DNA of 19,713 nucleotides, from assembly GCA_946481615.1 (NCBI GenBank), contig CAMLOR010000043.1, positions 1-19,713 of the forward strand. Reading direction: 5' to 3'. The notes beneath the pieces are model-generated. The model did no database searches and was not told where the DNA came from. It saw nothing but the letters and a program-made list of their open reading frames with translations. Source of the DNA: an uncultured Aquimonas sp. GTDB lineage: Bacteria > Pseudomonadota > Gammaproteobacteria > Xanthomonadales > Xanthomonadaceae. Position numbers and translations under genes: made by a program. Shown here piece by piece: positions 1 through 16,733 of this stretch; position 1 is the stretch's first letter; every line of letters starts with the position of its first letter.

Positions 1-2204
1 CTGATGCGGGCGAGCAGGTTACCGGCGGCGTCGTACTCGTATTCGATGATGCCGCCGTCGGCGTCGGTCACCTTCACGGTGCGGCTGCGGGCGTCCACGT
101 CGGTGGTCGAGGGGCCGCGGCCGTCGGTCGCGCTCGTGCGTTCGCCGCGGGCGTTGTAGCCGAAGCCGACGTCGGCGTCCTGCGGGTAGTCGATCGTGTC
201 CACGCGGCCGGCGAGGTCGTAGGTGTAACGCGTCGTCCGGCCGTTGAAGTCGGTGTGCGATTCGAGTTCGCCGGCAGCATTGTAGGTGCGGGTCTCGCGC
301 TGGCCTTCGGGCAGCACGCGGGCGGTCTCGCGGCCCATCGCATCGTAGTCCCAGCGCGTGACGCGGCCCTCGGCGTCGGTCTGCGTGGTCTTGTTGCCGA
401 CCTCGTCGTAACCGTAGCGGGTGACGAGCGTGGTGCTCGACGGGCTGTCGCCATTCACCAGCGGCGGATTGTCGCCGGTGACGGGGTCGGGCAGCACCAC
501 GGCCACCAGGCGGCCGAGTTGGTCGTAGGCGTAGCGCGTGGTGCGGCCGGCTTCGTCGATCTCGGCGGTCTTGCGGCCGAGTTGGTCGTACTCGGTGCGG
601 GTGCGCGGGTTGTTGGTGTCGTCGCCGTCGTCGTCGGCCGCATCGGGATGCACGGTCTCGATCAGGCGGCCGGCGTCGTCGTGGACGAAGCGGGTCGTGC
701 GGCCGGCCGGGTCGGTCACCGCGACGCGGCGGCCGCGGGTGTCGTAGGCCGTGGTCGTGACGCGGTCGAGGGCATCGGTCACCGTGGTGCGGCGGCCGGC
801 GTCGTCGTAGCCGTAGGTCGTCGCGTGGCCGGTTTCGTCGCGGCTTTCGATCAGCTGGCCGGCGCCGTCGTAGACGTTGAACGAGCGCGGGTTGTCGGCG
901 TCGGTGGCCGGTGTTTCGTCCGGATGCACGGTTTCGACCAGGCGGTCGGCGGCGTCGTAGACGAAGCGCGTCGTTTCGCCGTTGCGATCGGTCTGCGTGG
1001 CGAGGTTGCCGTTGGGATCGTAGGTCTTGAACTCCTGCGTGCCGTCGGCGTAGTGCGTTTCGGTCTCCAGGCCGCGGTCGTCGTAGACGTGCGTGGTGCA
1101 GCGCTGCAGGGCGTCGCATTCCTGCGCCGGCTGGTCGAGGCCGTCGTAGGTCGCGGTGGTTTCGCTGCCGTCGGGGTGCAGGGTCGAGAGCAGGCGGCCC
1201 TTGTCGTCGTAGGCGAAGGTCGTGGCGAGTTCCTGCGACGCGCCGCTCGGCAGGGTGCGCGTGCGGCGTTCCTCGGTGCGGCGGCCCAGGTCGTCATGGA
1301 CCATCGTGGTCACGCGGCCCAGCGCATCCGTCTCGGAGATCTGGAATGTGCTGAAGGCCGCATATGCCATCGCCGTGGTGTGCCCCGCGGCGTCGGTGAT
1401 GGCGTCGACGTTGCCGGTGTTCGACGAGCCGGGCCCCAGGTCGTAGCGGAAACCGGTCGCGTGGCCGAGCGCGTCCAGCGTTCGATGCAGGTTGAGGCCG
1501 TGATCGATGTATTCGTTCTGCAGCACCAGCGCGCCGGACGCATCCTTCTGCGTGAGCAACTGGTTCTGCGCGTTCCAGGTGCTGGTCGTGGTTTCGCCGA
1601 GGTCGTTCGTCTCGGTCAGCACGTTGCCGCGCGCATCGAAGGTCCACGTCGTGGTGCGGCCGAGGTCGTCGGTGCGCGTGAGTTCGTTGCCGTCGACGTC
1701 GTAGGTGTGGGTCGTGGTTTCGTCCAGCGCGTTGGTTTCCGACAGCACGTCGCCGCGGTCGTTGTAGACATACAGCGTGGCGTGGCCGCGGCGGTTCTTC
1801 ACCGTCGCCGTGCGGGCGTCGACGTCGGAGGTGTATTCGATGCGGTGGCCGTGGGCGTCGATCACCGCCTTCAGCTTGCCGTCGTCGTCGTATTCGTTGC
1901 GCGAAACCACGATCCCGCGCGCATCCTCGATCGTCTCGAGGTAGTGCGCGAAGCGGGCGTGGTAGCCGAAGGCGGCGGTTTCATTCGCCGTGTCGGTGAG
2001 GCCGATCAGATCGCCGGCGGGGCTGTAGGCGTAGTCGCGATGCGTGCCGTCGGGCAGCACCATGCGCTCGATGCGGCCCTGGGCATCGCGGATGAAATCG
2101 ATGCCCACGCCGCTCGAATGCCGCACGCCGTCGGCGTTGTAGGTGAGGTAGGCGCCGTTGGGTTCGGAAACCTTCTTCAGGCCCTCGAACTGCTCGATCT
2201 CGTA
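1..2204 (-). repeat. RHS/YD peptide-repeat array within the giant gene
   Basis: Roughly 30 YD-type units are readable, with cores such as YGYDDAGRRTTVTDALDRVT and YAYDQLGRLVAV. In RHS and Tc-toxin proteins such arrays form a spiral beta-shell that encloses the C-terminal effector. Two units carry an acidic, Asn-containing insertion after 'ETVHPD', suggesting internal duplication. The array is still running at the left edge, so its true length is unknown. Confidence 0.93.
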
Positions 2205-5200
2205 GCTCACGCCCTCGGCGGTGGTGAGGACGTAGCCGGAGGGATCGATCGGTTGCAGGGCCGGGTCGCTCAGGTCGACGAGGTTGCTGCCCGTGAAGCG
2301 CACCGTGCCGTAGCTGCGGCTGGTGAGTGTGCTGTCCGTTCCGTCGATGGGTTGGAATCCGACGGTGACGTCGACGCGCGGCGTCACGCCGCATTCGGGC
2401 ACCGCCACGGCGCGGAAGCTTTCGACCTGGCCGTCGGGCAGGGTGACGGTGACGATGGGATCGCCGTTGGAGAGCAGGCAGTAGCGGTCGAGGTGGCCTT
2501 CCTCGAGGCGGTGCATCTGCCAGCCGAAGCCGATGCGGCGGGATTCGTGCACGCGCACGTTGTTGGCGTCCACCGTCCAGCCGTGGCCGAAGTCGAGATC
2601 CTCGAGGCGGCGGCGGGTGTCGTAGGTGCGCGTCACCGTCACCGGGATGCCGGCCACCGGGACGGTGGCTTCTTCGAACGTGATGGAGTAGTGGCCGAGT
2701 TTCAGATCGCCGGTCACGCGCACCACGCGCGCATCGAAGCCGTGGTTGCCGGCGGCGTCCCAGCCTTGCAGCACGACGTGATATTGGCCGTTGAGCAGGC
2801 GGGTCGGGTCGAAGCGCGCGAGGTCGCGTTCGGTGAAGGCCTGTGTGCCGCTTGCGAGCACGACGATGGCGCCGCCGTTGCGATCCTGGAAGCCCAGCTC
2901 CCAGCGCGCGAGGTCCGTGTCGATCACCGAGCCCGCCACCTGGACCGGTGCGGTGATCTGCTGGCCGTCTTCGAGCGAGGCCAGACTGACGACCGGCGCG
3001 CCGCCCGCGGGGTCGGCCACCACGAAGTCGAGCACTTCCACGACGGGGCCGTCCGGGCCCTGCACGGTGACGCTCACCACGTGCGGTCCGATGGCCAGGG
3101 GCGGCACGGTGACGCTGCCCTCCGGTTCGAGCGCCAGCGGCGCGTTGTCGAGGCGCACGTCGAGCGTGCCCGCGATTTCCGAATGCACGGTCAGCGTGAC
3201 CGGATCGCTGGGCGAAGGTACGGTCGGTTCGATCAGGATCACGATCTGCGGCGGCGCGTCGGCCGCCACCACGCGCACCGGCCAGGTGAGCGTGACGGTG
3301 TTGACGCCGTCGGACACCTGCACGGTGATCGATTGCGGGCCGAGCTGGTCGGCGCCCGGCGTCCACTGCAGCAGGCCGTTCTCGTCGATGCTTGCGCCCG
3401 CCGGTGGATCGATCAATGCGTATTCGAGCGCGTCGCCTTGCGGATCGTTCGCCGCGATCTGCTGCGCGTAGGTCTCGCCGACGCGCGCCAGCGGGTCGAG
3501 GCCTTCGCGGCCGACCTCCGGTGCCGGGTCGGCCACCACCTGCAGCGTGAAGGCCTGCTCGGACGAACCGCCGTGGTCGTCGCTGGCCTTCACCTTCACC
3601 GCGTATTCGCCGACGGTGTTCGCAGCCCAGGTGATGACGCCGTTGGCGGCACCGATGTGCATGCCTTCCGGCGCCTGCGACAGCGTGAAGACGATCGGGT
3701 CGCCCTGATCGTCGACCGCCGCGACGGTGTGGGAGTAGACACGCCCATCGCGGGCCGTGGTCAGCGGCGTGCTGGTGAAGCGCGGCGCGGTGTTGGGTGC
3801 TTCGGCGACGGTGACGCTGAACCCTTGCTGGCGCCGCGGGCCAGGCAGATCGGTGGCTTCGACGACGAAGCTGTGGGTTCCTTTCTGTCCGCGCGCCGGC
3901 GTCCACGTGACGAGGCCGGTGGCGCGATCGATGCGCGCGCCGGCCGGCGCCGAGACGAGGCTGAAGGCGGCGCGGTCGCCGATGTCGGGGTCGGTCACCT
4001 GCACGTCGTAGCTGTAGGGCGACAATTCCGTGGCGGTGTAAACCGGCGTCGAGGCGAACGCGAGCCAGGTGTTGTCGTGGAACATCTGCAGCACGAAGCG
4101 CTGCTCGTCGAACAGGCCGCCGTGATCGGTCACCCTGAGCTCGACGTAGCGCGCGCTCGTGGCGTGGTTGCGTGTCTCGCAGTCGTCGAGCGCGGTGCTG
4201 CCGGCCACCGTGGCGAAGATCTGGTCGTGCAGGACGTCCGTATCCGGCACGGCGAAGCTGACGGTGCGCAATGCGCCGGCCGCGAGCGGCGCGAGCGTGG
4301 CCTGGTGCAGCAGCGTGCCGGCAGCGCCGCCGGAGTTGACCCTCAGCTCGAGCGGCGCGGCGGTGGAAGCGAGGCCGCGGTTGCGCACATCGACGCTCAG
4401 CGACGTGCCCGAGGCGTTCTTCGTCAGGCGCAGATTGCCGATCCAGACGTCGGACTGCGTCCGGCTCAGGGTGCCGCGCGTGCCGAGCTGCCCATGCGTA
4501 CCGCGCAGCTGCGGGTGGGTGGCGGGCTGCATCTCGCGTTGGTTGGCGGTGAGCGCGGGCGGCAGCCATCGGCCGCTCGATGCTCGCCAGGCGCGCAGGT
4601 TCTCGCCGCCGCCGGCGACGATCCAGCCTTCGTCATCGATCTCCACCAGCGTCGCGCCCTGCGCCGAAGCCGAGGGCTGATCGTCGGGCGTGCCGGTGAA
4701 AACGGCCGAAGCCGGTCCGGCGGAAAGGAAGATCCAGCCGCCGGCCGAACGCACCAGTTCAAGCGAACCGTCGCCGTCCAGATCGGCCGCGAAGGCCGCA
4801 CCGCCCAGGCTGCCGCCCGGTGCGGCATAGGAGAGGCTTCCGTCGGCCTCGATCAGCGCCACGTCCTGCACCACGAAGATTTCGTTGCCGCCGTCGTTGT
4901 CGAAATCGGCGACCAGGGCCTGGGTTTCGCGGCTGAGGGTCACGGGTGCGAACAGTGGCGTGCCGTCGGGCTGATAGGCGAGCAGCCGGGTCGCGGAGTT
5001 GTCGTTGACGACGGCCGCCAGTTCCAGCGCCGGATCGGCATCGAGATTGCCCGGGCTCCAGCGCACGAATTGGGCGTTCGCAGGCAGGATGAACTGCTGC
5101 AGCGTGGCGCCCTGCGCATTCAGCAGCCGATCGTGGAAAAGCAGCTCGGACACGCCGTCGCCTTCGATGTCGGTCATCACCAGCGAAGCGCGATTGCGGT

Positions 5201-8200
5201 ATTGATCGCTGCCGGGAACCTTCCAGCGCGGCGTGCCGTCGGCGTTCACGACCAGTGCGCCGAACAGGATTTCAGGCGTGCCGTCGGCATCGATGTCGCC
5301 GGCATGGATCGAGGAGTCGTAAAGCGAGAAGCCGCCGAGAACGGGACCGACCCAGCGTTGCGAGCCGTCGGCATTGATTGCGACGATGCCTTGGTCGCTG
5401 GTGGCTGCGACGATCTCGTCGCGTCCGTCGCCGTCCAGATCGACGGCCACCGGCGCGATGGATTCGTCGATCGTGCGCTGCGTGTATTTCCAGCGCTGCT
5501 GGCCGCTGCGGGCGTCGAAGGCCGCCAGTCCGCGCAGGCCGGCGAAGGTGCCGGCCACCGCCAGCGAAACATCGTCGTCCGCATCGACGTCGCCGTCGGC
5601 ATCGCCGTCGAACAGATGCGCGACCACCGGCATGCCCATGCCGCTGCCGCCGGTCCAGCGCCATTGCTCGCGCAGGCCGAGCGAGATGCCGGTGGAGAGC
5701 GGTTCGCGGCAATAGGGATCCTGGATCGCGAGCGTCTCGGGGAAGTCGGTGGTAGCCACCGGGTAAGGCCAGTCCAGGTAGCCTCCCGCGTCGAGCGTCA
5801 TGTAGGGAGGAGCCTTGGACAGCGTCCAGGCGAAGGTCTCGTTGACGTTGTCGTCCGACACGCTGATCGGGTAGCTGAAGTTGTTGCGCACTTGCGAGCG
5901 CATCGCAGGCGTGCTGGTGATGCGCGGCGCCGCGTTCGGGATGTCCACGAAGATTTCGAACGACTGGGTGTCGTAGGCGCCGTCGTTGCGCAAGCCGGCG
6001 ATGATGGCGATCAGCCGCGTGGCTTTCGGGAGCGTGGCCGGCACGTTCCAGGCCAGGGCGCCGGTGGCGGCGTCGATGGTCATGCCGGTCGGGCCGTTGA
6101 CCAGCTGGAACTGCAGGCCGGCGAGGTTTTCACCGGTGGGCGCGTAGGCCCACAGCGTGCCTTGCACCGCGCGCGGCACGGCTTCGCTCGTGATGCGCGG
6201 CAGCGGCGCGCCCGCCTGGATGGCGAGGTCGAAGTTCTGTTCGGCGACGTGGCCGGCCAGATCCGTGGCCGTGATGCGCACGTGCTGGGTGCCGCCGGCG
6301 GCCGTCGTCGGCTTGTACGTCATCACCCCCGTGCGTTCGTCGATGGCGGCACCGGCGGGCGCCTGCAACAGGCGGTAGAGCAGTGCGTCGCCGCGGTCGT
6401 CGTCCACGGCGTGCACGGCGTAGCGATAGGGATAGCCGATCTGCGCCGTCGTCACCGGCGTGGAGACGATGCGCGGTGCGGAGTCGGCTTCCGCCACGGT
6501 GACGGCATAGGCCTGCTCGTCGGAGAGACCGAAGGGATCGGTGGCGGCGAGGCGCACCCAGGGCGCCAGCAGCGTGTCGTTGCCGCTGTCGCACTGCGTG
6601 CCGTCGGGCAGCGTGGCGCGGGCGCGCAGGCCGGTGGTGCTCGCGGCCGCGTCGGCGAGCGCGAAGGCGATCGTGGTCTGCTGGCCTGGCAGCAGCGTCG
6701 GCAGCGGTTGCGTGCCGAGCGACTGCGCGCCTTCGCCGAGCAGTTCCAGCGTGCCCGCGGCGCTCGGCGTCTTGCCGCGATTGACGAGCGTGACGCGCGC
6801 TTGCGGATCGCCGCTGCCGGCCGCGATCGCCACGATGGCGATGTCGGCGCGCGGCTCCAGGCGGGTCTGCGCCTGGATCTCCTTCACCTTCACGTCGATC
6901 AGGGCGCGGGTGAAGGATTTCGCGAGATTGCCGCCGTCGCGCAATGCGTTCAGGTCCCACACCGCGCCGCCCGAATCCAGGGCCAGCGGCTTGTACTCGA
7001 CCAGCGTATTGGCATCGCCCCAGACGGCAATCGCGCCGCTGCACAGCGAGTATCCGCCCTGTCCGTCGGCGACGTAGCCGATTTGGTTCTGGCCGAGGCC
7101 GATGGCCCTGCGTCCGTCGGCGCACTCGAGTCCGACGTTGAGCGCCGCATTGAGCATCACGTCGTGCTGCTGCAAGGCCTGCAGAACCGCGTCGCGCGTC
7201 GGGCTGCCCGGGTGCCAGGAGTTTCCTTCGTCGGTGATGAGCAGCACGTTGCGCGCGGCCTGCGCGCGCATCGGATACTGCGTGACGGCGTAATGCGCGG
7301 CCAGCAGACCGTCTTCGTCGCCCGAGCCGTCGATCTTGAGGCGCAGCGCGCCGTCGATGAAGGCCGGATAGGCGGCGAAAAGGCTGCCGCCCAGATCGAA
7401 GGGGCGCGGTGCGCGGTCGTAGTCGACCAGGCCGTAGCGATTGCCGCCGCCGGTGCCGACGCCGTTCACGCGCAGGGCCAGATCGAGCGTGCCGATCATC
7501 TGGCCGATCCAGGCGTGCTCGGTGTCCATCGACCCCGAACGGTCGACCACGGTGACCATGTCGACCACGCGTTCGCCGGTGCTTTCGCCGAAGATCGCAA
7601 CATCGCACAACGCATGGGCATCGACGTGGCCGCGCGACAGCTCGGACGGCGCGGGCCAGTCGATCACGCCGTCGTCCGCGCCGATCGTCATGTCGGCCGG
7701 CGCCTGCGACAGCGTGTAGACGAGCGCGTCGCCGTCGGGATCGACGGCATCGGCATCGTAACGATAGGGCGTGCCCTCGACGGCCAGTTCGACGGGCTGC
7801 GAAACGATCTGCGGGCCGGCGTTGTCGCGCTGCTGGAGCGTGATCTCGTAGGCCTGCTGGTCGGCGGCGCCGGCCTGGTCGGCGACGCGCAGCACGACCG
7901 CATGCGTGCCGCTCTGGTCGGCGCGCGGGGTCCAGGCGATGGCGCCGGTCGAGGCGTCGATCGTCATGCCTTGCGGCGCGGCGGCGAGCGACCAGGCCAG
8001 TACGTCGCCGACATCCGGATCGACGGCCTGCGCGGCATAGGTGTACGGCGTGAGCTGGCGCGCTTCGAGCACCGGCAGGCTGACGATGCGCGGCGGATCG
8101 TTGACCGGCAGCACCTGCAGCTCGACGTTGGCCTGGCGGGTCGCGCCGGCCGCATCGGTGACGGAGAAGACGAAGCCGTCGCCGCCGTGATAACCGTCGG

Positions 8201-9476
8201 CGGGCTGATAGACGACGTCGCTGCCGTTGCCGCTCAACGTGCCATGTTCAGGGCCGGCGACGATCTCGAATGCCAGGGTGTCGCCGTCCGGATCGGTGCC
8301 TTGCAGCTGCAGCGCGAGCGGCGTGTCTTCCGGTGTTTCGGCCGATTGCGGCAGGGCCAGCGGCGCGTCGTTGACCGGGTCGACGACGATTTCCACGGTG
8401 GCCGCGGGCGATTGCGATTCGGCATCCGAGACGAGGAAGGTGAAGCTGACCGTGCCGTTCCACTGCGGCGGCGGCGTATACGACAAGGTCGGCGGTGTGC
8501 CGGTGAGTTCGCCGGTGGCCGGGCCCTGCACGATCTCGAAGGCCAGCGTGTCGCCGTCGGCGTCTTCCGCGGTCAGCACGATCGGCAGCGAGGTGTCTTC
8601 GTCCATGCGCAGCGACTGAGGGTGCGCGACGGGCGGTTCGTTGCCGTCGATCACCTCGATGCTGACCAGGGCCGGCGCCGAGTCGGCGAGGGCATCGCGC
8701 GCCACGAAGCGGAACTGGTCGGGGCCGTGATAGTCGGCGGCCGGGGTATAGGTCAGCGTCGAGCCGGTGCCGGTCAGCGTGCCGTGTGCGGGCGCCTCGA
8801 GGACGCGGAACTCGAGGGCGTCGCCGTCGGCATCGCTGGCCTCCAGTTCGATCGCGAGCGGCGTGTTCTCTTCCGTCGACAGCGCCTGCGCTTGCGCGAC
8901 GGGGGCGTCGTTGTAGCAGTCGGCCTCGCCCAGATACCGGAAGCCGATCCACCCATTGCCCGTGAGACGGTAGTCGCGCAGGCGCACGGTGGCGAAGCGC
9001 TCGACGCGGTAGTCCAGGCGGCTGCCCCGGGCGCGCGTGGCGTCGAATACCGGCAGCACGATGTCGCGCGTGAGCAGGATGTCCATCGCCGCGCGGACCG
9101 CCGACGAATTCATCGAACCCGGCCCGCCCTGGATGAAGTCGCCGGCATCGATGCTGCGATCGGCAGGCTGGTCGGGGTTGAACCAGTTTCCGCTGTCGCC
9201 CGGCACCGTCAGGCTGGCGGCCAGCGTGGGCGAGTCGTTGGCGCCGGTCCAGGACAGCCAGCTGTAGTTGCCCGGGCCCGTGCCGCGCGGCAGCTCGGCC
9301 ACGATGTCGCCGGGCGAGAGCGTCGACACCACGCTGTCGGGCAGGGCGATCGGGTAGACCGCGCAGTCGTTCGGAACCGGGTCGGCTGCCGCAGCGGGGG
9401 CGGGCAGGAGGCCGGTGGCGAAAATCAAAAGGGCGGCGGCCACCTGATCGAACAGGCGGCGAATGGACGGCGACAT
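1..9476 (-). CDS. Giant secreted multidomain RHS-repeat protein with VWA domain and FG-GAP propeller (C-terminus beyond window)
   Basis: At least 3,158 codons are visible, from ATG at 9476-9474, in one frame; the register was checked near residues 190, 645, 1418 and 2300 and at the left edge. A signal peptide (MSPSIRRLFDQVAAALLIF..., cleavage near AAA-A, about residue 31) indicates export. Domains: uncharacterised N-terminal domain about 40-180; three cadherin-like repeats about 190-455, each starting near NDAP/NEPP; Ig-like (He_PIG-type) repeats about 458-630; VWA about 636-860 with MIDAS motif D645-R-S647-G-S649; CARDB-type about 868-975; Ig-like about 978-1250; seven FG-GAP blades about 1280-1590; CARDB-type about 1665-1780; Ig-like about 1780-2080; RHS entry segment from about 2255 (TRTYDTRRR, GHGW); YD repeats about 2425-3158. 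The likely role is surface adhesion or contact-dependent effector delivery, inferred from the family. The effector end is not visible. A weak purine-rich site (GGGGAA) precedes the start. Confidence 0.93.
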   Translation of the reverse strand, partial: MSPSIRRLFDQVAAALLIFATGLLPAPAAAADPVPNDCAVYPIALPDSVVSTLSPGDIVAELPRGTGPGNYSWLSWTGANDSPTLAASLTVPGDSGNWFNPDQPADRSIDAGDFIQGGPGSMNSSAVRAAMDILLTRDIVLPVFDATRARGSRLDYRVERFATVRLRDYRLTGNGWIGFRYLGEADCYNDAPVAQAQALSTEENTPLAIELEASDADGDALEFRVLEAPAHGTLTGTGSTLTYTPAADYHGPDQFRFVARDALADSAPALVSIEVIDGNEPPVAHPQSLRMDEDTSLPIVLTAEDADGDTLAFEIVQGPATGELTGTPPTLSYTPPPQWNGTVSFTFLVSDAESQSPAATVEIVVDPVNDAPLALPQSAETPEDTPLALQLQGTDPDGDTLAFEIVAGPEHGTLSGNGSDVVYQPADGYHGGDGFVFSVTDAAGATRQANVELQVLPVNDPPRIVSLPVLEARQLTPYTYAAQAVDPDVGDVLAWSLAAAPQGMTIDASTGAIAWTPRADQSGTHAVVLRVADQAGAADQQAYEITLQQRDNAGPQIVSQPVELAVEGTPYRYDADAVDPDGDALVYTLSQAPADMTIGADDGVIDWPAPSELSRGHVDAHALCDVAIFGESTGERVVDMVTVVDRSGSMDTEHAWIGQMIGTLDLALRVNGVGTGGGNRYGLVDYDRAPRPFDLGGSLFAAYPAFIDGALRLKIDGSGDEDGLLAAHYAVTQYPMRAQAARNVLLITDEGNSWHPGSPTRDAVLQALQQHDVMLNAALNVGLECADGRRAIGLGQNQIGYVADGQGGYSLCSGAIAVWGDANTLVEYKPLALDSGGAVWDLNALRDGGNLAKSFTRALIDVKVKEIQAQTRLEPRADIAIVAIAAGSGDPQARVTLVNRGKTPSAAGTLELLGEGAQSLGTQPLPTLLPGQQTTIAFALADAAASTTGLRARATLPDGTQCDSGNDTLLAPWVRLAATDPFGLSDEQAYAVTVAEADSAPRIVSTPVTTAQIGYPYRYAVHAVDDDRGDALLYRLLQAPAGAAIDERTGVMTYKPTTAAGGTQHVRITATDLAGHVAEQNFDLAIQAGAPLPRITSEAVPRAVQGTLWAYAPTGENLAGLQFQLVNGPTGMTIDAATGALAWNVPATLPKATRLIAIIAGLRNDGAYDTQSFEIFVDIPNAAPRITSTPAMRSQVRNNFSYPISVSDDNVNETFAWTLSKAPPYMTLDAGGYLDWPYPVATTDFPETLAIQDPYCREPLSTGISLGLREQWRWTGGSGMGMPVVAHLFDGDADGDVDADDDVSLAVAGTFAGLRGLAAFDARSGQQRWKYTQRTIDESIAPVAVDLDGDGRDEIVAATSDQGIVAINADGSQRWVGPVLGGFSLYDSSIHAGDIDADGTPEILFGALVVNADGTPRWKVPGSDQYRNRASLVMTDIEGDGVSELLFHDRLLNAQGATLQQFILPANAQFVRWSPGNLDADPALELAAVVNDNSATRLLAYQPDGTPLFAPVTLSRETQALVADFDNDGGNEIFVVQDVALIEADGSLSYAAPGGSLGGAAFAADLDGDGSLELVRSAGGWIFLSAGPASAVFTGTPDDQPSASAQGATLVEIDDEGWIVAGGGENLRAWRASSGRWLPPALTANQREMQPATHPQLRGTHGQLGTRGTLSRTQSDVWIGNLRLTKNASGTSLSVDVRNRGLASTAAPLELRVNSGGAAGTLLHQATLAPLAAGALRTVSFAVPDTDVLHDQIFATVAGSTALDDCETRNHATSARYVELRVTDHGGLFDEQRFVLQMFHDNTWLAFASTPVYTATELSPYSYDVQVTDPDIGDRAAFSLVSAPAGARIDRATGLVTWTPARGQKGTHSFVVEATDLPGPRRQQGFSVTVAEAPNTAPRFTSTPLTTARDGRVYSHTVAAVDDQGDPIVFTLSQAPEGMHIGAANGVITWAANTVGEYAVKVKASDDHGGSSEQAFTLQVVADPAPEVGREGLDPLARVGETYAQQIAANDPQGDALEYALIDPPAGASIDENGLLQWTPGADQLGPQSITVQVSDGVNTVTLTWPVRVVAADAPPQIVILIEPTVPSPSDPVTLTVHSEIAGTLDVRLDNAPLALEPEGSVTVPPLAIGPHVVSVTVQGPDGPVVEVLDFVVADPAGGAPVVSLASLEDGQQITAPVQVAGSVIDTDLARWELGFQDRNGGAIVVLASGTQAFTERDLARFDPTRLLNGQYHVVLQGWDAAGNHGFDARVVRVTGDLKLGHYSITFEEATVPVAGIPVTVTRTYDTRRRLEDLDFGHGWTVDANNVRVHESRRIGFGWQMHRLEEGHLDRYCLLSNGDPIVTVTLPDGQVESFRAVAVPECGVTPRVDVTVGFQPIDGTDSTLTSRSYGTVRFTGSNLVDLSDPALQPIDPSGYVLTTAEGVSYEIEQFEGLKKVSEPNGAYLTYNADGVRHSSGVGIDFIRDAQGRIERMVLPDGTHRDYAYSPAGDLIGLTDTANETAAFGYHARFAHYLETIEDARGIVVSRNEYDDDGKLKAVIDAHGHRIEYTSDVDARTATVKNRRGHATLYVYNDRGDVLSETNALDETTTHTYDVDGNELTRTDDLGRTTTWTFDARGNVLTETNDLGETTTSTWNAQNQLLTQKDASGALVLQNEYIDHGLNLHRTLDALGHATGFRYDLGPGSSNTGNVDAITDAAGHTTAMAYAAFSTFQISETDALGRVTTMVHDDLGRRTEERRTRTLPSGASQELATTFAYDDKGRLLSTLHPDGSETTATYDGLDQPAQECDALQRCTTHVYDDRGLETETHYADGTQEFKTYDPNGNLATQTDRNGETTRFVYDAADRLVETVHPDETPATDADNPRSFNVYDGAGQLIESRDETGHATTYGYDDAGRRTTVTDALDRVTTTAYDTRGRRVAVTDPAGRTTRFVHDDAGRLIETVHPDAADDDGDDTNNPRTRTEYDQLGRKTAEIDEAGRTTRYAYDQLGRLVAVVLPDPVTGDNPPLVNGDSPSSTTLVTRYGYDEVGNKTTQTDAEGRVTRWDYDAMGRETARVLPEGQRETRTYNAAGELESHTDFNGRTTRYTYDLAGRVDTIDYPQDADVGFGYNARGERTSATDGRGPSTTDVDARSRTVKVTDADGGIIEYEYDAAGNLLARI
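647..974 (-). repeat. Internal duplication in the YD array, 276-bp period
   Basis: Positions 647-698 and 923-974 match at 46 of 52 bases, exactly 276 bp (92 codons) apart. Both encode the segment around 'RFV(H/Y)DAA(G/D)RL(I/V)ETVHPD' and both are followed in the protein by an acidic insertion containing 'NPR'. This points to duplication of a multi-unit block (about three YD units) rather than single-unit expansion. Confidence 0.7.
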
Positions 9477-9624
9477 GGTGGATTCCCCGGAACGTCGACG
9501 CGGCGCCGGCCTACCATGGCTGACGCTCTGCGCGTGACGCGGCGCGCAGTTTAGTCAGCGCCTTCCGCGGGTTGTAGCCCCCATCCGAGGGGAAGCCGGT
9601 GACGTTTCTTGCGCGGTAACGTTT
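9477..9624. other. Intergenic leader of the giant gene (148 bp)
   Basis: This gap separates the 141-residue protein gene from the giant gene, both on the minus strand. It holds a small inverted repeat, CTGCGCG at 9528-9534 and CGCGCAG at 9543-9549, with an 8-base loop. I see no convincing promoter hexamers, T-tract terminator or known riboswitch consensus. Confidence 0.4.
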
Positions 9625-11044: not shown

Positions 11045-11434
11045 TTACTTCGGTTCGATCAGATCCCAGCGATTGCCGTACAGATCCTCGAACACGACGA
11101 CGGTGCCGTAGGCCTCGTGCCGAGGCTCTTCCGCGAAACGCACGCCGAAGGCCTGCATGCGGGCGTAGTCGGCGGCGAAGTCGTCGGTATGCAGGAACAG
11201 CCAGACGCGGCCGCCGCCCTGGCGGCCGACCGCCGCCTGTTGCTCGGGACTGGCCGCGCGTGCCAGCAGCAACGCGGTTTCGGCGCCGCGCGGACTCATC
11301 CGCACCCAGCGTTTGTCGTTCCCTTGCGGGCTGTCTTCCAGCAGTTCGAAGCCGAGCGCGCCTTCGAACCAGCGGATGGCTTCGTCATAGTGGTGGACGA
11401 GCAGGGCGAACTGGGCGAAGTGCATGCCGCCCAT
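11045..11434 (-). CDS. VOC-superfamily (glyoxalase/bleomycin-resistance fold) protein
   Basis: This is a 129-residue cytosolic protein of normal length for a single VOC unit. The N-terminal half reads HFAQFALLVHHYDEAIRWFEGALGFELLED, here in two parts: HFAQFALLVHHYDEA and then IRWFEGALGFELLED. This is the classic first beta-alpha-beta module. The second module has RVWLFLHTDDFAADYARM and ends with VVVFEDLYGNRWDLIEPK, typical of dioxygenase-like VOC proteins that act on small molecules. The substrate cannot be told from sequence. Two starts are possible, ATG at 11434 (MGGMHF) or at 11425 (MHFAQF); neither has a strong ribosome binding site. With the first, the gene begins 7 bp after the delta-60 protein's stop, so co-transcription and coupling are likely. 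The REP pair follows the stop immediately. Confidence 0.88.
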   Translation of the reverse strand: MGGMHFAQFALLVHHYDEAIRWFEGALGFELLEDSPQGNDKRWVRMSPRGAETALLLARAASPEQQAAVGRQGGGRVWLFLHTDDFAADYARMQAFGVRFAEEPRHEAYGTVVVFEDLYGNRWDLIEPK

Positions 11435-11441
11435 GATGCCA

Positions 11442-12905
11442 TCAGAAGCCGTCGCCGAAGAGCGGCCAGTGCTCGAGTTTGACCGCTGCGGTGTCCACCG
11501 CGGCCGGGTTGAGCAGCGCGTCGGGTTCGCCGGGCTCGCGTGCGGCATGCACGCGCACCGAAGCGCCGATCAACAACGGCTGGCCGTCGTGCATGAGCAG
11601 CGTGCGCACGTCGTCGGTGGGCGCGCCGCCGTGGAACAGATCGATCAGTGCGATGCCGCCTTCGCCGAAGCGCGTGTCCGGACGTCCGTCGCGCGTGAAG
11701 CGCGCTGCCAGGAAATCCTGGTTGAGCACGTGCTCGCCGAAGTAGCCCGCGCCCACCAGCCAGTGGCCGCTGGGGCTGCGGGCCAAGCCGGCCGGCACGG
11801 TGTTGAGCGCGTCGGGCATCGCGAGCGCCGTCGAGAAGCCGGGCGTCGCGGCGTCGCCGAACTCCGGCGCGGCCGCGCCGTCGGCCTGCAGGCGACCGAT
11901 CCGCGTGCCGGTGCCGGCGCCGCTGTCGCCGGCCTGCACGGCGAACACCAGCGCGCCGTCGGTGTCGATCTCGAGCGCGTCGATGGTTTCGACGTCGTAT
12001 TGCACGCCGGGAATCTCGAACACCTGCCAGCCATCGTCGGCGAAGGTCGCGTCGAGCTCGCCTCGCACCGTGAGACGCGCGACCGACAGATCGTAGTTGT
12101 CGATGAACTCCTGCTGCGGCCCGGTGCGCGGACGCTGATGGGTGCCGGCCAGCACGACGCGGTCGTCCGGCAGCACCTGCATCGCCAGCACGTAGCTCAG
12201 ATGGTCGACGCCGGGTTCGTAAAGTTCGAAGGTCGACAACGGGGCGCCGCCGGCATCGAAGCGCGCCAGCAGGCCGCGGTACATCGGCACGCCGATGCGT
12301 TCGAGCTTTTCGCCGGCCGCAAGGATGTTGCCGTGGCTGTCCACTTTCAGCGCATGGAACAGCGCGTCCGCGAGCAGCGCGCCGCCATGTGCGAAGTCCG
12401 GATCGAGTTCGCCGCCGGGCAGCAGGCGCAGCACGAATCCGGTGGTCGGCCCGAATGCGGTGCAGGTGCCCGCGACCAGGATGCGGCCGTCGTCGAGCAG
12501 ATGCACCGCCTCCACGCGCTGCTCGGCGGTGCCGGGCACGAGGTCGGGCAGCACGACGACGCCGGGCATGTCCGGATCGCTGCCGAAACCCGCGTCGGGC
12601 CGGCCATCGGCGCCCATGCGCATCACCGCGCCGCGCGCGTCGGGATCGGGGCGCAACAACTCCGCGCGATTGAGATAGCCGCCGATCACGATGCGATCGT
12701 CCGCGTCGACCGCGGCGTCGTTCGGCACCAGCATCCAGCTCGTGCCCTCGATGCGTTGTCCGTCGCGATCGTGCGGGTCGCCCGCGGTGAGGATGGCGAG
12801 GCCGGCATCGCCGAACGCGGCGATCGGCGCGCCGTCCGCGGCGATCGCCGGCGTCGCGCCGAACGCAGCGAACCACAGCGCCAGCGACAGGATTTTCTTC
12901 GGCAT
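11442..12905 (-). CDS. Secreted delta-60-repeat beta-propeller-like protein
   Basis: The protein has 487 residues. A signal peptide (MPKKILSLALWFAAFGATPA, cleavage near AIA-A, residue 22-23) indicates export. The body contains about six delta-60-type repeats: a 'F(G/A)xxG' strand followed by a '(D/P)xD(G/D)(R/N)(I/V)(L/V)(V/I)(A/G)G' strand, for example VDADDRIVIGGYL, LLDDGRILVAGTC, VDSHGNILAAGEK, VLPDDRVVLAGTH, FADDGWQVFEI and RFGEGGIALIDLF. Such repeats are expected to form a propeller; the function is unknown. ATG at 12905 has GGAG 7 bases upstream. The last residues, EHWPLFGDGF, resemble the end of the divergent protease (VFGSGFEP). The gene is divergent from the protease across 159 bp and its stop lies 7 bp before the VOC gene, so the two probably share a transcript. 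Confidence 0.88.
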   Translation of the reverse strand: MPKKILSLALWFAAFGATPAIAADGAPIAAFGDAGLAILTAGDPHDRDGQRIEGTSWMLVPNDAAVDADDRIVIGGYLNRAELLRPDPDARGAVMRMGADGRPDAGFGSDPDMPGVVVLPDLVPGTAEQRVEAVHLLDDGRILVAGTCTAFGPTTGFVLRLLPGGELDPDFAHGGALLADALFHALKVDSHGNILAAGEKLERIGVPMYRGLLARFDAGGAPLSTFELYEPGVDHLSYVLAMQVLPDDRVVLAGTHQRPRTGPQQEFIDNYDLSVARLTVRGELDATFADDGWQVFEIPGVQYDVETIDALEIDTDGALVFAVQAGDSGAGTGTRIGRLQADGAAAPEFGDAATPGFSTALAMPDALNTVPAGLARSPSGHWLVGAGYFGEHVLNQDFLAARFTRDGRPDTRFGEGGIALIDLFHGGAPTDDVRTLLMHDGQPLLIGASVRVHAAREPGEPDALLNPAAVDTAAVKLEHWPLFGDGF

Positions 12906-13064
12906 CGAACCGCTCCGCGAAGGCAAAAGGCAGCCGAGCATATCGAGCGCCTGGGCGCGATTCGTTACCGGAATTTGCGCGCTGGGTGGAGAGACGAAGC
13001 GCGCCCGAACTGCGTCCAGCATGGTTCGTTCGCGATCGCGCGACGTCATGGAGTGGAGTGCACG
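12906..13064. other. Divergent intergenic region (159 bp) between delta-60 and protease genes
   Basis: Both flanking genes start here, so promoters in both directions are expected, but I cannot identify convincing -35/-10 pairs. Ribosome binding sites are clear on each side: GGAG at 13055-13058 for the protease, and GGAG on the minus strand near 12913-12916 for the delta-60 gene. A perfect 10-bp palindrome CGCGATCGCG lies at 13031-13040. Confidence 0.4.
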
Positions 13065-15986
13065 ATGCCAAGGATCCGTCGTTCGTCCGCCGCGGTCGCG
13101 GCCTGTTGCCTGCTCGGCGGCGCGCACGCCGCCACCTTGCCGAAACATGCGCCGGAAACCCTCGGTCCGGCGGATGCGCAGGGCCGGCGCGCCTGGTATG
13201 TCGAGTACGAGCGTGGGAAGGGGATCGACATCGAAGAGGCGGTCAAGCGCCAAGGCGGCGTCGTGCGGCATCGCTTCGATGGCCTGCCCATGATGAGCGT
13301 GCTGTTGCCGGAGCGGGCGCTGGCACCGTTCGCTGCCGAAAAGCACGTGCAGCACGTGTCGCCCGTGCCGCCGCGCGCGCCGCTCGAACAGCACGTGCCC
13401 TGGAACCTCGATGCGATCCAGGCACGCGATCTGTGGGATGCCGATCGCGACGGCAGCATCGACACCGGCGCGCCGGACGGCAGCGCCTTCACCGTCTGCG
13501 TGATCGACACCGGCCTGTACGCCGCGCACGACGATTTCGCCGGCATCGCGTTGAGCGGCAGCTCGCAGGTGCCCGGCGAGGAATGGTTCACCGACGGTGC
13601 CGGGCACGGCACGCACGTGGCCGGCACCGTGAATGCCGCGCACAACGGCGCGGGCGTCGTGGGCGTGCTGCCGGGCGGCGCGGCACTGCACATCGTGAAG
13701 GTGTTCGACAACGACGGGCGCTGGACGCCCACCTCGGATGTCGCCGCGGCGGCCGAGGATTGCGTGGCGCACGGCGCCGACGTCATCAACATGAGCCTGG
13801 GCGGACCGTTCAGCGCCGCCGAAGAGCGCGTGTTCGAGTCGCTGTGGGAACGCGGCGTGCTGCTGGTGGCGGCGGCCGGCAATTCCAACGATGGCCCTTT
13901 TGCAATGAGCTTTCCCGCCAACTACGCCTCGGTGATCTCGGTGGCGGCGGTGGATCGCATGCAGCTCGCCGCCGACTTCACGCAGCACCCGGAGTCGCGG
14001 CTGGATCCTTCCCTGCCGCCTGCCGACGGCGGCTGGGACGCGGCCGAACTTTCCGGCGGCGGCGTGAACGTGCTTTCGACGCTGCCCGGCCCGCCGCACG
14101 GGCAGGTGCCGCAGTACCGCGTGGAAGCGGGAGACCGACACTTCGAAGGGCAGCATGTGGCGGAGTCGGGCCATGCGGCGCCGAACGCCGCGCTGGTGGA
14201 TGGCGGCCGCTGCCTGCCGCGCAGCGGCGATGCAGGTTGGGCGGATCGCATCGTCCTGTGCGAACGCGGCGATGCCAGCTTCGCCGAGAAGATCAACGAA
14301 GTCGCCGCGTTCGGCGGATTGGCAGCGGTGATCTACAACAACGATGCCAGCCAGATCGGCCCCACCTGCGGCGGCGAATGCACGAGCGGCATTCCGGGCA
14401 TCTTCCTGTCGCGCGACGACGGTCTGGCCCTGCAGCGCGATCTGCTGGGCCAGGCGCTGACGGCGCGCGCCGACGACGGCGCCTGCGACGACTGCAACGG
14501 TGCCTACGGCGCGAACAGCGGCACCTCGATGGCGTCGCCCGGCATCGCCGGCGGCCTGGCGCTGTTGTGGCAGGCCTGTGGCGGGCCCGGCGCGATCGAC
14601 AATCGCGACGTGCGCCTGCTGGCGCGCGACAGCGCGCTCGATCTGGAAGGCGTGCATCCCGGCAGCGATGTCGCCTACGGCCCGGGCTACGACCGCGTCA
14701 CCGGTTGGGGCCTGCTGCAGGTGGCGGATGCCGCGCGGCTCGGCCGCGAGCGCTTCGGTGCCACCTGCGCGCTCGGTCTGGCGGCGACGCCGCGCACGCG
14801 TTCGGTGTGCACCACCGATGCGGCCGCCACCGATTTCGCGCTCGAGCTGACGACCGATTTCGCCGGCGCGGGCACCTTCACGCTGGACGGCTTGCCGGCC
14901 GGAGCCCGCGCGCAGTTCGATCCCGCCGTCCTGCCCGCAGGCCAGCGCGATGCGCTGCTGCGGGTGGACGATCTCGCCCAGGCGCCCGCGGGCCGGCACG
15001 TGCTGACGCTGCAGGCGCAGGACCAGACCGATGCGCGGCGCATCGCCAGCACCACGGTGCAACTCGATCTCTCGCACGCGCTGCCGGATGCGGCGCAGGC
15101 ACTCTCGCCCGCCGACGGCGACGCCGGCGTGGCGCTGTTGCCGCCGCTGCGCTGGTCGGCGTCGCCGGGCGCGTTCGAGTATCTCGTGGAAATCGACGAC
15201 AGCGCCGATTTCTCGTCGCCGCTGCTGAGCGCCACGACCGTCGAAACGACACTGACGCCGCTGTCGAGGCTGCCCGGCAACACCGTGCTGCATTGGCGCG
15301 TGACCGCGCGCAATGCGTGCGGCGATCAGGCTTCGGCCGCCGCCTCGTTCACCACCGGGCCCGAGCCCGCCCAGTGCCCGCTTCAGCACGAGCCGCGCGT
15401 CGTGTTCGAGGACGATGCCGAAACCGCATTGCCGGGCTGGACGCATTCGGGCCTGCGTGACAGCTGGCTGCGCTACAACTTCCAGGCCCATTCGGGCCGC
15501 TTCGCGTGGTGGGCGCGCGATCTGGACCTCGTTTCCGACCAGCACCTGGTTTCGCCGAAGATTTCGCTGCCGGCCGACCGCGCGCCGCTGTCGCTCGCAT
15601 TCTGGGAGCTGCAGGGCATCGAAGCGAACGGGCAGGGCGTGTGCTGGGATGGCGCGCTGCTCGATGTCTCCACCGACGACGGCGCGACCTGGGAGCCCGT
15701 GTCGGCGGCCTCGGTACAGGGTCAGCCCTACGACGGCGTCATCCCGGACACCGACGACAACCCCGCGGCCGGTGCCCAGGCCTGGTGCGGCGACCCGCGC
15801 GGCTGGTCGCGCCAGGTGATCGATCTGCAGCCCTGGGCCGGCCAGGACGTGCGCCTGCGCTTCCGCCTCGCCACCGACAGCTCGACCGGCCGCGCGCCTT
15901 TCGGCTGGCTGCTCGACGACCTGCGCGTGCAGGGCTGCGAGGCGATCGACCCGCTGCACGTGTTCGGCAGCGGGTTCGAACCCTGA
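13065..15986 (+). CDS. Secreted S8 (subtilisin-like) serine protease with PA insert and C-terminal accessory domains
   Basis: The protein has 973 residues. ATG at 13065 has GGAG 6 bases upstream and opens a signal peptide (MPRIRRSSAAVAACCLLGGA, cleavage near AHA-A, residue 22-23). Residues about 40-105 (WYVEYERGKGID...) look like an I9-type propeptide. The catalytic triad is intact: D148 (VIDTGLY), H181 (GHGTHVAGT), S488 (GTSMASPG), with oxyanion-hole N273 (AAGNSND). A protease-associated (PA) domain, about 370-470, is inserted before the serine. D125-A-D127-R-D129-G-S-I-D133 is an EF-hand-like calcium loop. Downstream are an Ig-like segment (about 573-670), an FN3-like segment (670-765) and a MAM/immune-inhibitor-A-like jelly-roll (about 770-965). 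It ends VFGSGFEP. The role is extracellular protein degradation. Its stop is 6 bp from that of the convergent cupredoxin gene. The frame stays open far upstream, but that part is not coding. Confidence 0.95.
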   Translation: MPRIRRSSAAVAACCLLGGAHAATLPKHAPETLGPADAQGRRAWYVEYERGKGIDIEEAVKRQGGVVRHRFDGLPMMSVLLPERALAPFAAEKHVQHVSPVPPRAPLEQHVPWNLDAIQARDLWDADRDGSIDTGAPDGSAFTVCVIDTGLYAAHDDFAGIALSGSSQVPGEEWFTDGAGHGTHVAGTVNAAHNGAGVVGVLPGGAALHIVKVFDNDGRWTPTSDVAAAAEDCVAHGADVINMSLGGPFSAAEERVFESLWERGVLLVAAAGNSNDGPFAMSFPANYASVISVAAVDRMQLAADFTQHPESRLDPSLPPADGGWDAAELSGGGVNVLSTLPGPPHGQVPQYRVEAGDRHFEGQHVAESGHAAPNAALVDGGRCLPRSGDAGWADRIVLCERGDASFAEKINEVAAFGGLAAVIYNNDASQIGPTCGGECTSGIPGIFLSRDDGLALQRDLLGQALTARADDGACDDCNGAYGANSGTSMASPGIAGGLALLWQACGGPGAIDNRDVRLLARDSALDLEGVHPGSDVAYGPGYDRVTGWGLLQVADAARLGRERFGATCALGLAATPRTRSVCTTDAAATDFALELTTDFAGAGTFTLDGLPAGARAQFDPAVLPAGQRDALLRVDDLAQAPAGRHVLTLQAQDQTDARRIASTTVQLDLSHALPDAAQALSPADGDAGVALLPPLRWSASPGAFEYLVEIDDSADFSSPLLSATTVETTLTPLSRLPGNTVLHWRVTARNACGDQASAAASFTTGPEPAQCPLQHEPRVVFEDDAETALPGWTHSGLRDSWLRYNFQAHSGRFAWWARDLDLVSDQHLVSPKISLPADRAPLSLAFWELQGIEANGQGVCWDGALLDVSTDDGATWEPVSAASVQGQPYDGVIPDTDDNPAAGAQAWCGDPRGWSRQVIDLQPWAGQDVRLRFRLATDSSTGRAPFGWLLDDLRVQGCEAIDPLHVFGSGFEP

Positions 15987-15995
15987 TCCGGATCA
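15972..15995. other. Two abutting 12-bp perfect palindromes at convergent stop codons
   Basis: GGGTTCGAACCC (15972-15983) is followed directly by TGATCCGGATCA (15984-15995). The second palindrome contains both stop codons, TGA of the protease and, read on the minus strand, TGA of the cupredoxin gene. There is no T-tract on either side, so an intrinsic terminator is possible but not demonstrated. Confidence 0.4.
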
Positions 15996-16733
15996 GCGCG
16001 TGCCGGCCGCGGCCTGGGTGCACGCGGCCGGAACCGGCGTCAGTCGCTGGATCGGGATCGTGCCCGATTGGCCGGTGTCGGTGCGGTTGAAGGTGACCGT
16101 GCCGTGCGTGCAATCGGTGAAGCGGAAGGTCGCGGTTCCCACGTTGGCCGAAGCGATCGGCGTGGGATCGTTGAAGCGCCCGCCGGTGCTGTGCTGCAGT
16201 GTCAACGTCGCGCTGTCACCGACGTACGGTCCGAAAGCCGAGATCCAGTCGTGCTGGCCGGCGGTGCCGGTCCAGGTGAACCAGCCCAGCGCCATCGAGC
16301 TGGCACTCGGCACCACTTCGATCAGGAAACCCTGGCCGCTGGTGGCCGGGTTGTACCAGGTGCCGCCGATGCCGTAGTTGATGGCGAAGGGCGTGCCGCC
16401 CTGCACGACCACCGTGCCCGCCATGCCGGCGCCGTTCGGGCCGCCGTGCGGCTGGCAGTAATAGCCGAACTCGCCGGCAGTATCGAAGGTGTGCGAGTAG
16501 GTCCAGCTGCCTGAGCTCGGCTCGCCGCTGCTGAAGCTCTCGTCGTCGGCGAACACGTTGTGGTCGCCGCCCATGTTGCGCCAGCGCACGGTGTCGCCGG
16601 GCGCGATGGTGACGGTCTCCGGCTCGAAGCGGAAGCTGATGACCTGGACATCGTGCGTTTCGGCCCAGGCCGCCGTGCCGGCCAGGGTCAGCAGCAAGCC
16701 GCCTGCCGCGGCATGGAATCGCGCGTTCGACAT
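15993..16733 (-). CDS. Secreted cupredoxin (plastocyanin/azurin-like) fused to an uncharacterised C-terminal domain
   Basis: The protein has 246 residues. ATG at 16733 has GGGAG 7 bases upstream. The signal peptide is MSNARFHAAAGGLLLTLAGT, with cleavage near AWA-E (24-25). Residues 25-111 form a type-1 copper domain, with ligands H58 (GDHNVF), C93 and H96 (YYCQPHGG) and M104 (GAGMAGTVVV); all four are present, so it should bind copper and may transfer electrons in the periplasm or outside the cell. Residues about 115-235 form a second beta-rich domain (GIGGTWYNPATSGQGFLIEV, ALGWFTWTG, SGTIPIQRLTP) that I recall as a recurrent unnamed module in secreted Xanthomonadales-type proteins; its function is unknown. 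C208 and C238 could form a disulfide. The gene is convergent with the protease and divergent from radA across 124 bp. Confidence 0.92.
   Translation of the reverse strand: MSNARFHAAAGGLLLTLAGTAAWAETHDVQVISFRFEPETVTIAPGDTVRWRNMGGDHNVFADDESFSSGEPSSGSWTYSHTFDTAGEFGYYCQPHGGPNGAGMAGTVVVQGGTPFAINYGIGGTWYNPATSGQGFLIEVVPSASSMALGWFTWTGTAGQHDWISAFGPYVGDSATLTLQHSTGGRFNDPTPIASANVGTATFRFTDCTHGTVTFNRTDTGQSGTIPIQRLTPVPAACTQAAAGTR

Follow-up and report, generated by a model that had tools for sequence, protein, structure and literature searches.

Nuclease tips of the NucA/NucB type are already known on RHS toxins, and ComI, whose name is carried by the corresponding class Tox-ComI (PF14040), is presumably the same protein as NucA. 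Excerpts of Zhang et al. 2012 (PMC3482391) list Tox-ComI as the domain of ComI, a competence nuclease of Bacillus subtilis, with a DE motif, type II and type VI secretion system (T2SS and T6SS) routes, RHS repeats, Imm-ComJ or Imm-SUKH, and gammaproteobacteria included. Part of a study of Streptococcus suis (PMC12704120) reports that the WapA-CT1 tip inhibits Escherichia coli from the cytoplasm and is partly relieved by the adjacent Imm1, and part of another (PMC12396204) describes the T6SS protein Rhs2 of Aeromonas hydrophila AH54 as an RHS protein with a predicted tip of the NucA/B superfamily. Here we analyse a stretch of 19,713 nucleotides from an uncultured Aquimonas sp. (contig CAMLOR010000043.1), called the window throughout, in which the gene of a giant RHS protein runs off the left edge. 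This gene adds a member to the known kind: it very probably encodes, on the chromosome, a Sec-exported polymorphic toxin of the RHS class, whose DNase tip of the NucA/NucB (Tox-ComI) type would act against neighbouring bacteria. The case is built on its architecture, core end and tip family and, among relatives, on exchanged tips, orphan tips and the genes that follow the stop, all read from sequence.

The window gene shares with the Tox-ComI toxins a ComI/NucA-type nuclease tip with a DE dyad and RHS repeats, whereas the excerpts of PMC3482391 describe no VWA, von Willebrand, FG-GAP or cadherin stalk. WapA-CT1 is alike in size (3,158 residues), Sec signal, TIGR03696-closed RHS shell and NucB-like tip; as far as that part of PMC12704120 describes it, it differs in its Gram-positive host and in having LysM repeats, DUF6531 and two RHS domains in place of the adhesive stalk. 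Rhs2, in the part of PMC12396204 concerned, has FIX/DUF2345 parts of a T6SS effector at its N-terminus, not a signal peptide. NucB of Bacillus licheniformis (5omt, 6ejs, 9fj7) is a free secreted enzyme with Asn117, whereas the window-gene tip has Thr, longer loops and its own set of conserved Cys. The Tc toxin TcB and SpvB-type RHS toxins likewise combine a beta-propeller and an RHS shell in one protein, and YenB appeared weakly (E 0.035) in the propeller profile search; unlike in those toxins, the window propeller lies ~600 residues before the shell. Membership of the Tc toxin or SpvB-TcdB class was set aside, as the SpvB and TcdB domains had no Pfam match at E 0.1 in the window protein and its relatives.

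Shell, core end and tip

The frame opens with ATG on the minus strand and is still open at the left window edge, 3158 residues on; ~63 stops would be expected in as many random codons at the GC of the gene. Codon-position GC is 0.69/0.50/0.89, which identifies the minus strand as the coding strand and bears out the earlier note on this DNA, which had proposed a secreted protein of more than 3,150 residues in one frame. The plus strand also carries an open frame (window 3-9554, 3183 codons), which is a mirror of the gene because the gene lacks TTA, CTA and TCA codons and has high third-position GC.

A protein search with residues 600-1000 retrieved P0004, a record of 3764 residues that shares 3157 of the 3158 residues of the window protein and extends it, in an unbroken frame, by 606 residues; it probably represents this contig or a near-identical one. 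The sole mismatch is residue 2965 (window 582-584), which is Gln (CAA) in the window and Ala in P0004, P0005 and P0007; a nearby repeat of the window protein has YDQLGR as well. The nearest full-length relative, P0005, aligns over its full length with 57% identity and a like order of domains.

The C-terminal addition in P0004 completes the shell. RHS_repeat is above the Pfam cut-off in the window protein (E 3e-81; E 7e-93 in a scan of full-length records), TIGR03696 is above cut-off at residues 3475-3555 of P0004, a DPSG motif is present, and the core terminates in HDDPVNGIDPSG. The gene product therefore has the YD/RHS shell with a conserved core end that marks a polymorphic toxin. Both the core-end motif and the payload that the earlier note had placed left of the window are there, the payload within the 606 further residues.

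The tip of P0004 comprises 210 residues and matches DNase_NucA_NucB (PF14040) with E 5e-9. Its kinship to NucA/NucB rests on this family profile and on the fold. The catalytic His, Asp and Glu, at tip positions 77, 133 and 134, are invariant in 19 of 19 tips. The closest tip, 57% identical over 95% of the searched stretch, is that of P0018, a protein with a more distant trunk.

Tip exchange and downstream genes among relatives

With residues 2150-2500 as the query, species genomes yielded 95 relatives, of which the best 80 were kept, about two-thirds being gammaproteobacteria by record title; loci L081-L094 partly duplicate other loci from the same genomes. The most widespread part in the retrieved loci is the RHS N-terminal segment, which itself served to retrieve them. 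Fifty-nine of the 80 loci were usable for a Pfam count of tips, with L016, L023 and L059 represented by their last 205 residues; 18 frames open at the stretch end, L027 (short frame), L009 (frame lost) and L076 (mis-parsed) were left out. At E 0.01 these 59 tips included 15 NucA/NucB, 9 PT-HINT, 3 GIY-YIG and single AHH, Tox-PL-2 and other domains.

Pairwise comparison of 67 tips, of which 56 came from loci and 11 from protein records, with the last 400 residues taken as the shell, revealed unrelated tips in four of six pairs with a shell identity of at least 90%, in 7/13 pairs at 75-90% shell likeness and in 22/29 at 65-75%. The shells of three Marinobacter genomes are 94-95% alike and their tips 18-27%. 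Against exchange, two Lysobacter (L004/L005) and two Duganella (L051/L053) genomes share an unchanged tip. The C-terminal tip, which the earlier note had expected to vary, thus differs between close proteins, as seen among relatives rather than between strains of the window species. Orphan tips also lie near such genes in relatives. In L096 a NucA/NucB tip that carries part of a shell (14326-16098) adjoins the main gene, and the gene after it (16110-16694) is related to the gene after the L002 toxin; two further orphans, in L045 near 15555 and in L016 near 8809, were recognised by motif only. With tip exchange and orphan tips together, the behaviour is therefore that of a polymorphic toxin family.

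Downstream genes were collected from 15 NucB-tip loci chosen by the motif CDE[YFW]P. A same-strand gene stands at the stop in 14 of them, starting between 44 nucleotides before and 141 nucleotides after it, and ten of these genes were scanned; SMI1_KNR4 (SUKH-1) was above cut-off in two and below it in four. Groups of related downstream genes follow groups of tips: L004/L005/L016/L060 (with L072 more distant), L002 with the L096 orphan, and L032/L042. In the 12 of 105 pairs with related downstream genes, by a threshold set after looking, the tips are more alike (mean score 310 vs 117, p 5e-5), as they are when the near-duplicates L005 and L042 are removed (214 vs 114, p 0.004). A candidate for the small immunity gene that the earlier note had suggested is to this extent seen in relatives, as a gene at the stop that is SUKH-like in six of the ten scanned.

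Some downstream genes have distinctive starts: judged by eye, they are lipoprotein-like in L004, L005, L032 and L042 and a signal sequence in L016, and the others seen have neither. Such starts may point to interception in the periplasm. YD-repeat-like pieces adjoin the main RHS genes of L095 and L097, as expected for remnants of earlier tip exchange. In L009 (Tahibacter soli) the frame is lost at 11389, soon after the start of the RHS segment, and its last residues look out of frame.

Stalk, export and genomic setting

The domains that precede the shell are collected in Table 1.

Table 1. Parts of the giant RHS gene, from the N-terminus onward, with their positions in the window
Feature	Residues	Window position	Strand	Basis or remark
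RHS giant		3..9476	-	3158 aa within window, runs on leftward; 3764 aa in matching record P0004
Sec-type signal peptide	~1-31	9384..9476	-	By eye
N-terminal domain	36-190	8907..9371	-	Unmatched in Pfam; conserved across a 22-sequence alignment, two invariant Cys
Big_9 / cadherin-like repeats	~189-460	8097..8912	-	Pfam
Ig-like (He_PIG) repeats	~460-625	7602..8099	-	Pfam and relatives' loci
VWA domain	625-875	6852..7604	-	DxSxS and later metal-site Asp retained
CARDB-like domain 1	~876-985	6522..6851	-	Comparison with P0005
Ig-like repeats	~990-1260	5697..6509	-	Pfam and relatives' loci
FG-GAP beta-propeller	1255-1650	4527..5714	-	Pfam, profile; 6mlt nearest solved relative by sequence
CARDB-like domain 2	~1660-1790	4107..4499	-	Pfam and relatives' loci
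Ig-like (He_PIG) repeats	~1790-2080	3237..4109	-	Pfam and relatives' loci
RHS N-terminal segment (GDLKLGHYSI..TVTRTYDTRR)	2255-2500	1977..2714	-	Comparison with relatives
YD/RHS repeat array	2500-3158	3..1979	-	Pfam; cut by window edge

The signal peptide, MSPSIRR..LLIFATGLLPAPAAAA, was assigned by eye. The domain behind it, ~150 residues long with 15 invariant columns in an alignment of 22 RHS giants (L001 was excluded because its stretch contains a stop), matched nothing in Pfam with its window sequence, nothing in the PDB by sequence and nothing clearly by fold. Its placement varies: L004 has it close to the N-terminus, and in L002, L015 and L095 it is preceded by ~300-430 residues. Big_9 (E 1e-79), Cadherin_5 (E 2.7e-44), He_PIG (E 1.5e-62) and FG-GAP_3 (E 6e-15) are all above the Pfam cut-off. 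Two assignments fall below it on the single window sequence: VWA_2 (E 0.05) and CARDB (E 0.0025, in one place only). CARDB is above cut-off in two stretches of P0005 (E 4.6e-8), and a 17-sequence VWA profile run against the PDB hit integrin I-domains and collagen VI (best E 1.7e-11); this profile and the metal-site residues of the window sequence, DRSGS (DxSxS) and TDE (the later Asp), support the VWA assignment. With this backing from relatives, the domain list of the earlier note (signal peptide, cadherin-like, Ig-like, VWA, two CARDB, FG-GAP, YD array) is correct. With only the best few candidates per genome scored, at least 11 of 398 genomes sampled from the order contain the VWA region, 7 with E below 1e-20; by this count it is rare and patchy there.

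A 16-sequence propeller profile matched 6mlt with 246.5 bits (E 3.6e-72), the runner-up chain reaching 72.6 bits, and the window propeller alone also led to 6mlt (E 1.1e-11). This entry, named hemolysin-related protein in the PDB, we take to be Vibrio Bap1, and the kinship suggests a possible docking role for the stalk. The adhesive stalk envisaged in the earlier note is plausible from its VWA, CARDB, cadherin-like and Ig-like domains and from a propeller nearest a biofilm adhesin; the surface anchoring and contact dependence that went with it found no backing, and the Pfam and NCBIfam matches of the window protein and its relatives include no anchor domain. The makeup of the stalk is the less ordinary part of the protein, and literature searches, which are limited evidence, found no description of it.

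The same Pfam and NCBIfam matches include no part of a type V, VI or VII secretion system (T5SS, T6SS, T7SS), of SpvB or of TcdB, which leaves an N-terminal signal peptide with no such leader domain. In 18 carrier genomes (the 15 NucB-motif loci with L003, L095 and L096), the T6SS sheath gene TssC occurs in only 7, and the T2SS secretin GspD is above cut-off in 17. The locus looks chromosomal from its neighbours, a gene read as radA, a PilZ gene, a cytochrome c assembly gene and the start of an ffh-like gene (ffh by eye). Of the 11 Lysobacterales carriers searched, ten have a match to this radA with 74-79% identity, Tahibacter the highest (79%), and the remaining one has a match with 64%. The window also holds a delta-60 repeat protein (11442-12518, minus; tail FGDGF) and, divergent from it, an S8 peptidase with PA and MAM-like domains (13056-15986, plus; tail FGSGFEP). 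Tails of these two types showed no enrichment in the fetched loci.

Weighing the explanations

In the polymorphic-toxin reading, the unfolded chain would cross via Sec, led by its signal peptide, with the adhesive stalk (cadherin-like, Ig-like, VWA, CARDB, propeller) preceding the YD-repeat shell. By analogy with known RHS shells, the YD shell would enclose the C-terminal tip and the RHS core would close it. The released tip would be a metal-dependent DNase that cuts the DNA of neighbouring bacteria, and the small gene immediately behind the toxin gene, which resembles SUKH genes in some relatives, would protect the producer. Passage of the outer membrane, cleavage, delivery, targets and activity of the window-gene tip are parts of this scheme that we infer.

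Several observations weigh against it. P0005 has the tip motif and gave no PF14040 match at E 0.1, and a Foldseek search on its own found nothing at E 0.001. The candidate immunity genes all come from relatives, as the window ends inside the gene; each is the first sizeable frame, chosen by eye, L055 lacks a same-strand gene at its stop, and four of the ten scanned genes have no SUKH match, a fifth reaching only E 0.09. Over all pairs, tip similarity and downstream-gene similarity show no rank correlation (rho 0.06, p 0.27; rho -0.02, p 0.55 without the two near-duplicates). The frequency of GspD among carriers does not discriminate, because 115 of the 121 genomes from the order have it as well. 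The metal-binding Asn of NucB (Asn117, in the DNRG motif) is Thr in the window gene's product (residue 3716, tip position 162), and its equivalent is absent from 6 of 19 tips and Asn in 13. Since the corresponding Asn-to-Ala change, N111A, abolishes the activity of BsNucB (in part of PMC5758888), the window-gene tip may be weak or inactive.

This last point would also fit a decayed member of the family, whose nuclease activity is lost and which serves as an adhesin only, the more so as the closest tip, that of P0018, has Gln at the same place. We consider such decay very unlikely: His, Asp, Glu and the fold are retained, the frame is intact across all of P0004, and the changes of Asn in the six tips, which come from at least Pseudomonadota and a cyanobacterium, suggest tolerated variation. 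Even less credible, to the point of being negligible, is a chimeric assembly or sequencing artefact. The window does terminate inside the gene and differs from P0004 in one residue, but the full-length alignment of P0005 shows the same domains in the same order, and VWA, propeller and RHS follow each other identically in other genomes (L001, L003-L005, L095 and L096).

The stalk raises a different alternative, in which the protein is a matrix-directed surface nuclease or adhesin that docks on biofilm polysaccharide or cells and whose tip of the NucB type degrades the extracellular DNA in the matrix, not rival genomes. NucB is described in part of PMC5758888 as a secreted biofilm-degrading DNase, the propeller is nearest 6mlt by profile and by its own sequence, and the propellers of Bap1/RbmC bind matrix polysaccharide, as stated in part of PMC10102183. 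This explanation is nonetheless unlikely, as unrelated tips are swapped on alike shells, a pure matrix DNase has no need of a gene pair at the stop or of orphan tips, and a propeller match over half its length is missing from 9 of the 15 NucB-motif loci. A speculative and similarly doubtful idea keeps the toxin and makes the stalk its matrix-docking device: a Bap1/RbmC-like propeller, with VWA and Ig domains, would hold the toxin cage on the biofilm polysaccharide of a neighbour, exchangeable toxins would be aimed at biofilms, matrix DNA and cells alike would be targets of the NucB-type tip, and lipoprotein inhibitors would guard the periplasm of some producers (L004, L005, L032, L042).

For the polymorphic toxin that we favour, the match to P0004 settles how the gene continues past the window edge. 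Sec-type RHS giants from environmental bacteria often end in NucA/NucB (ComI) tips, 15 of 59 here, and the candidate immunity genes can be tested in pairs with these tips. The N-terminal domain and the propeller resembling that of a biofilm adhesin are possible targeting parts of such toxins.
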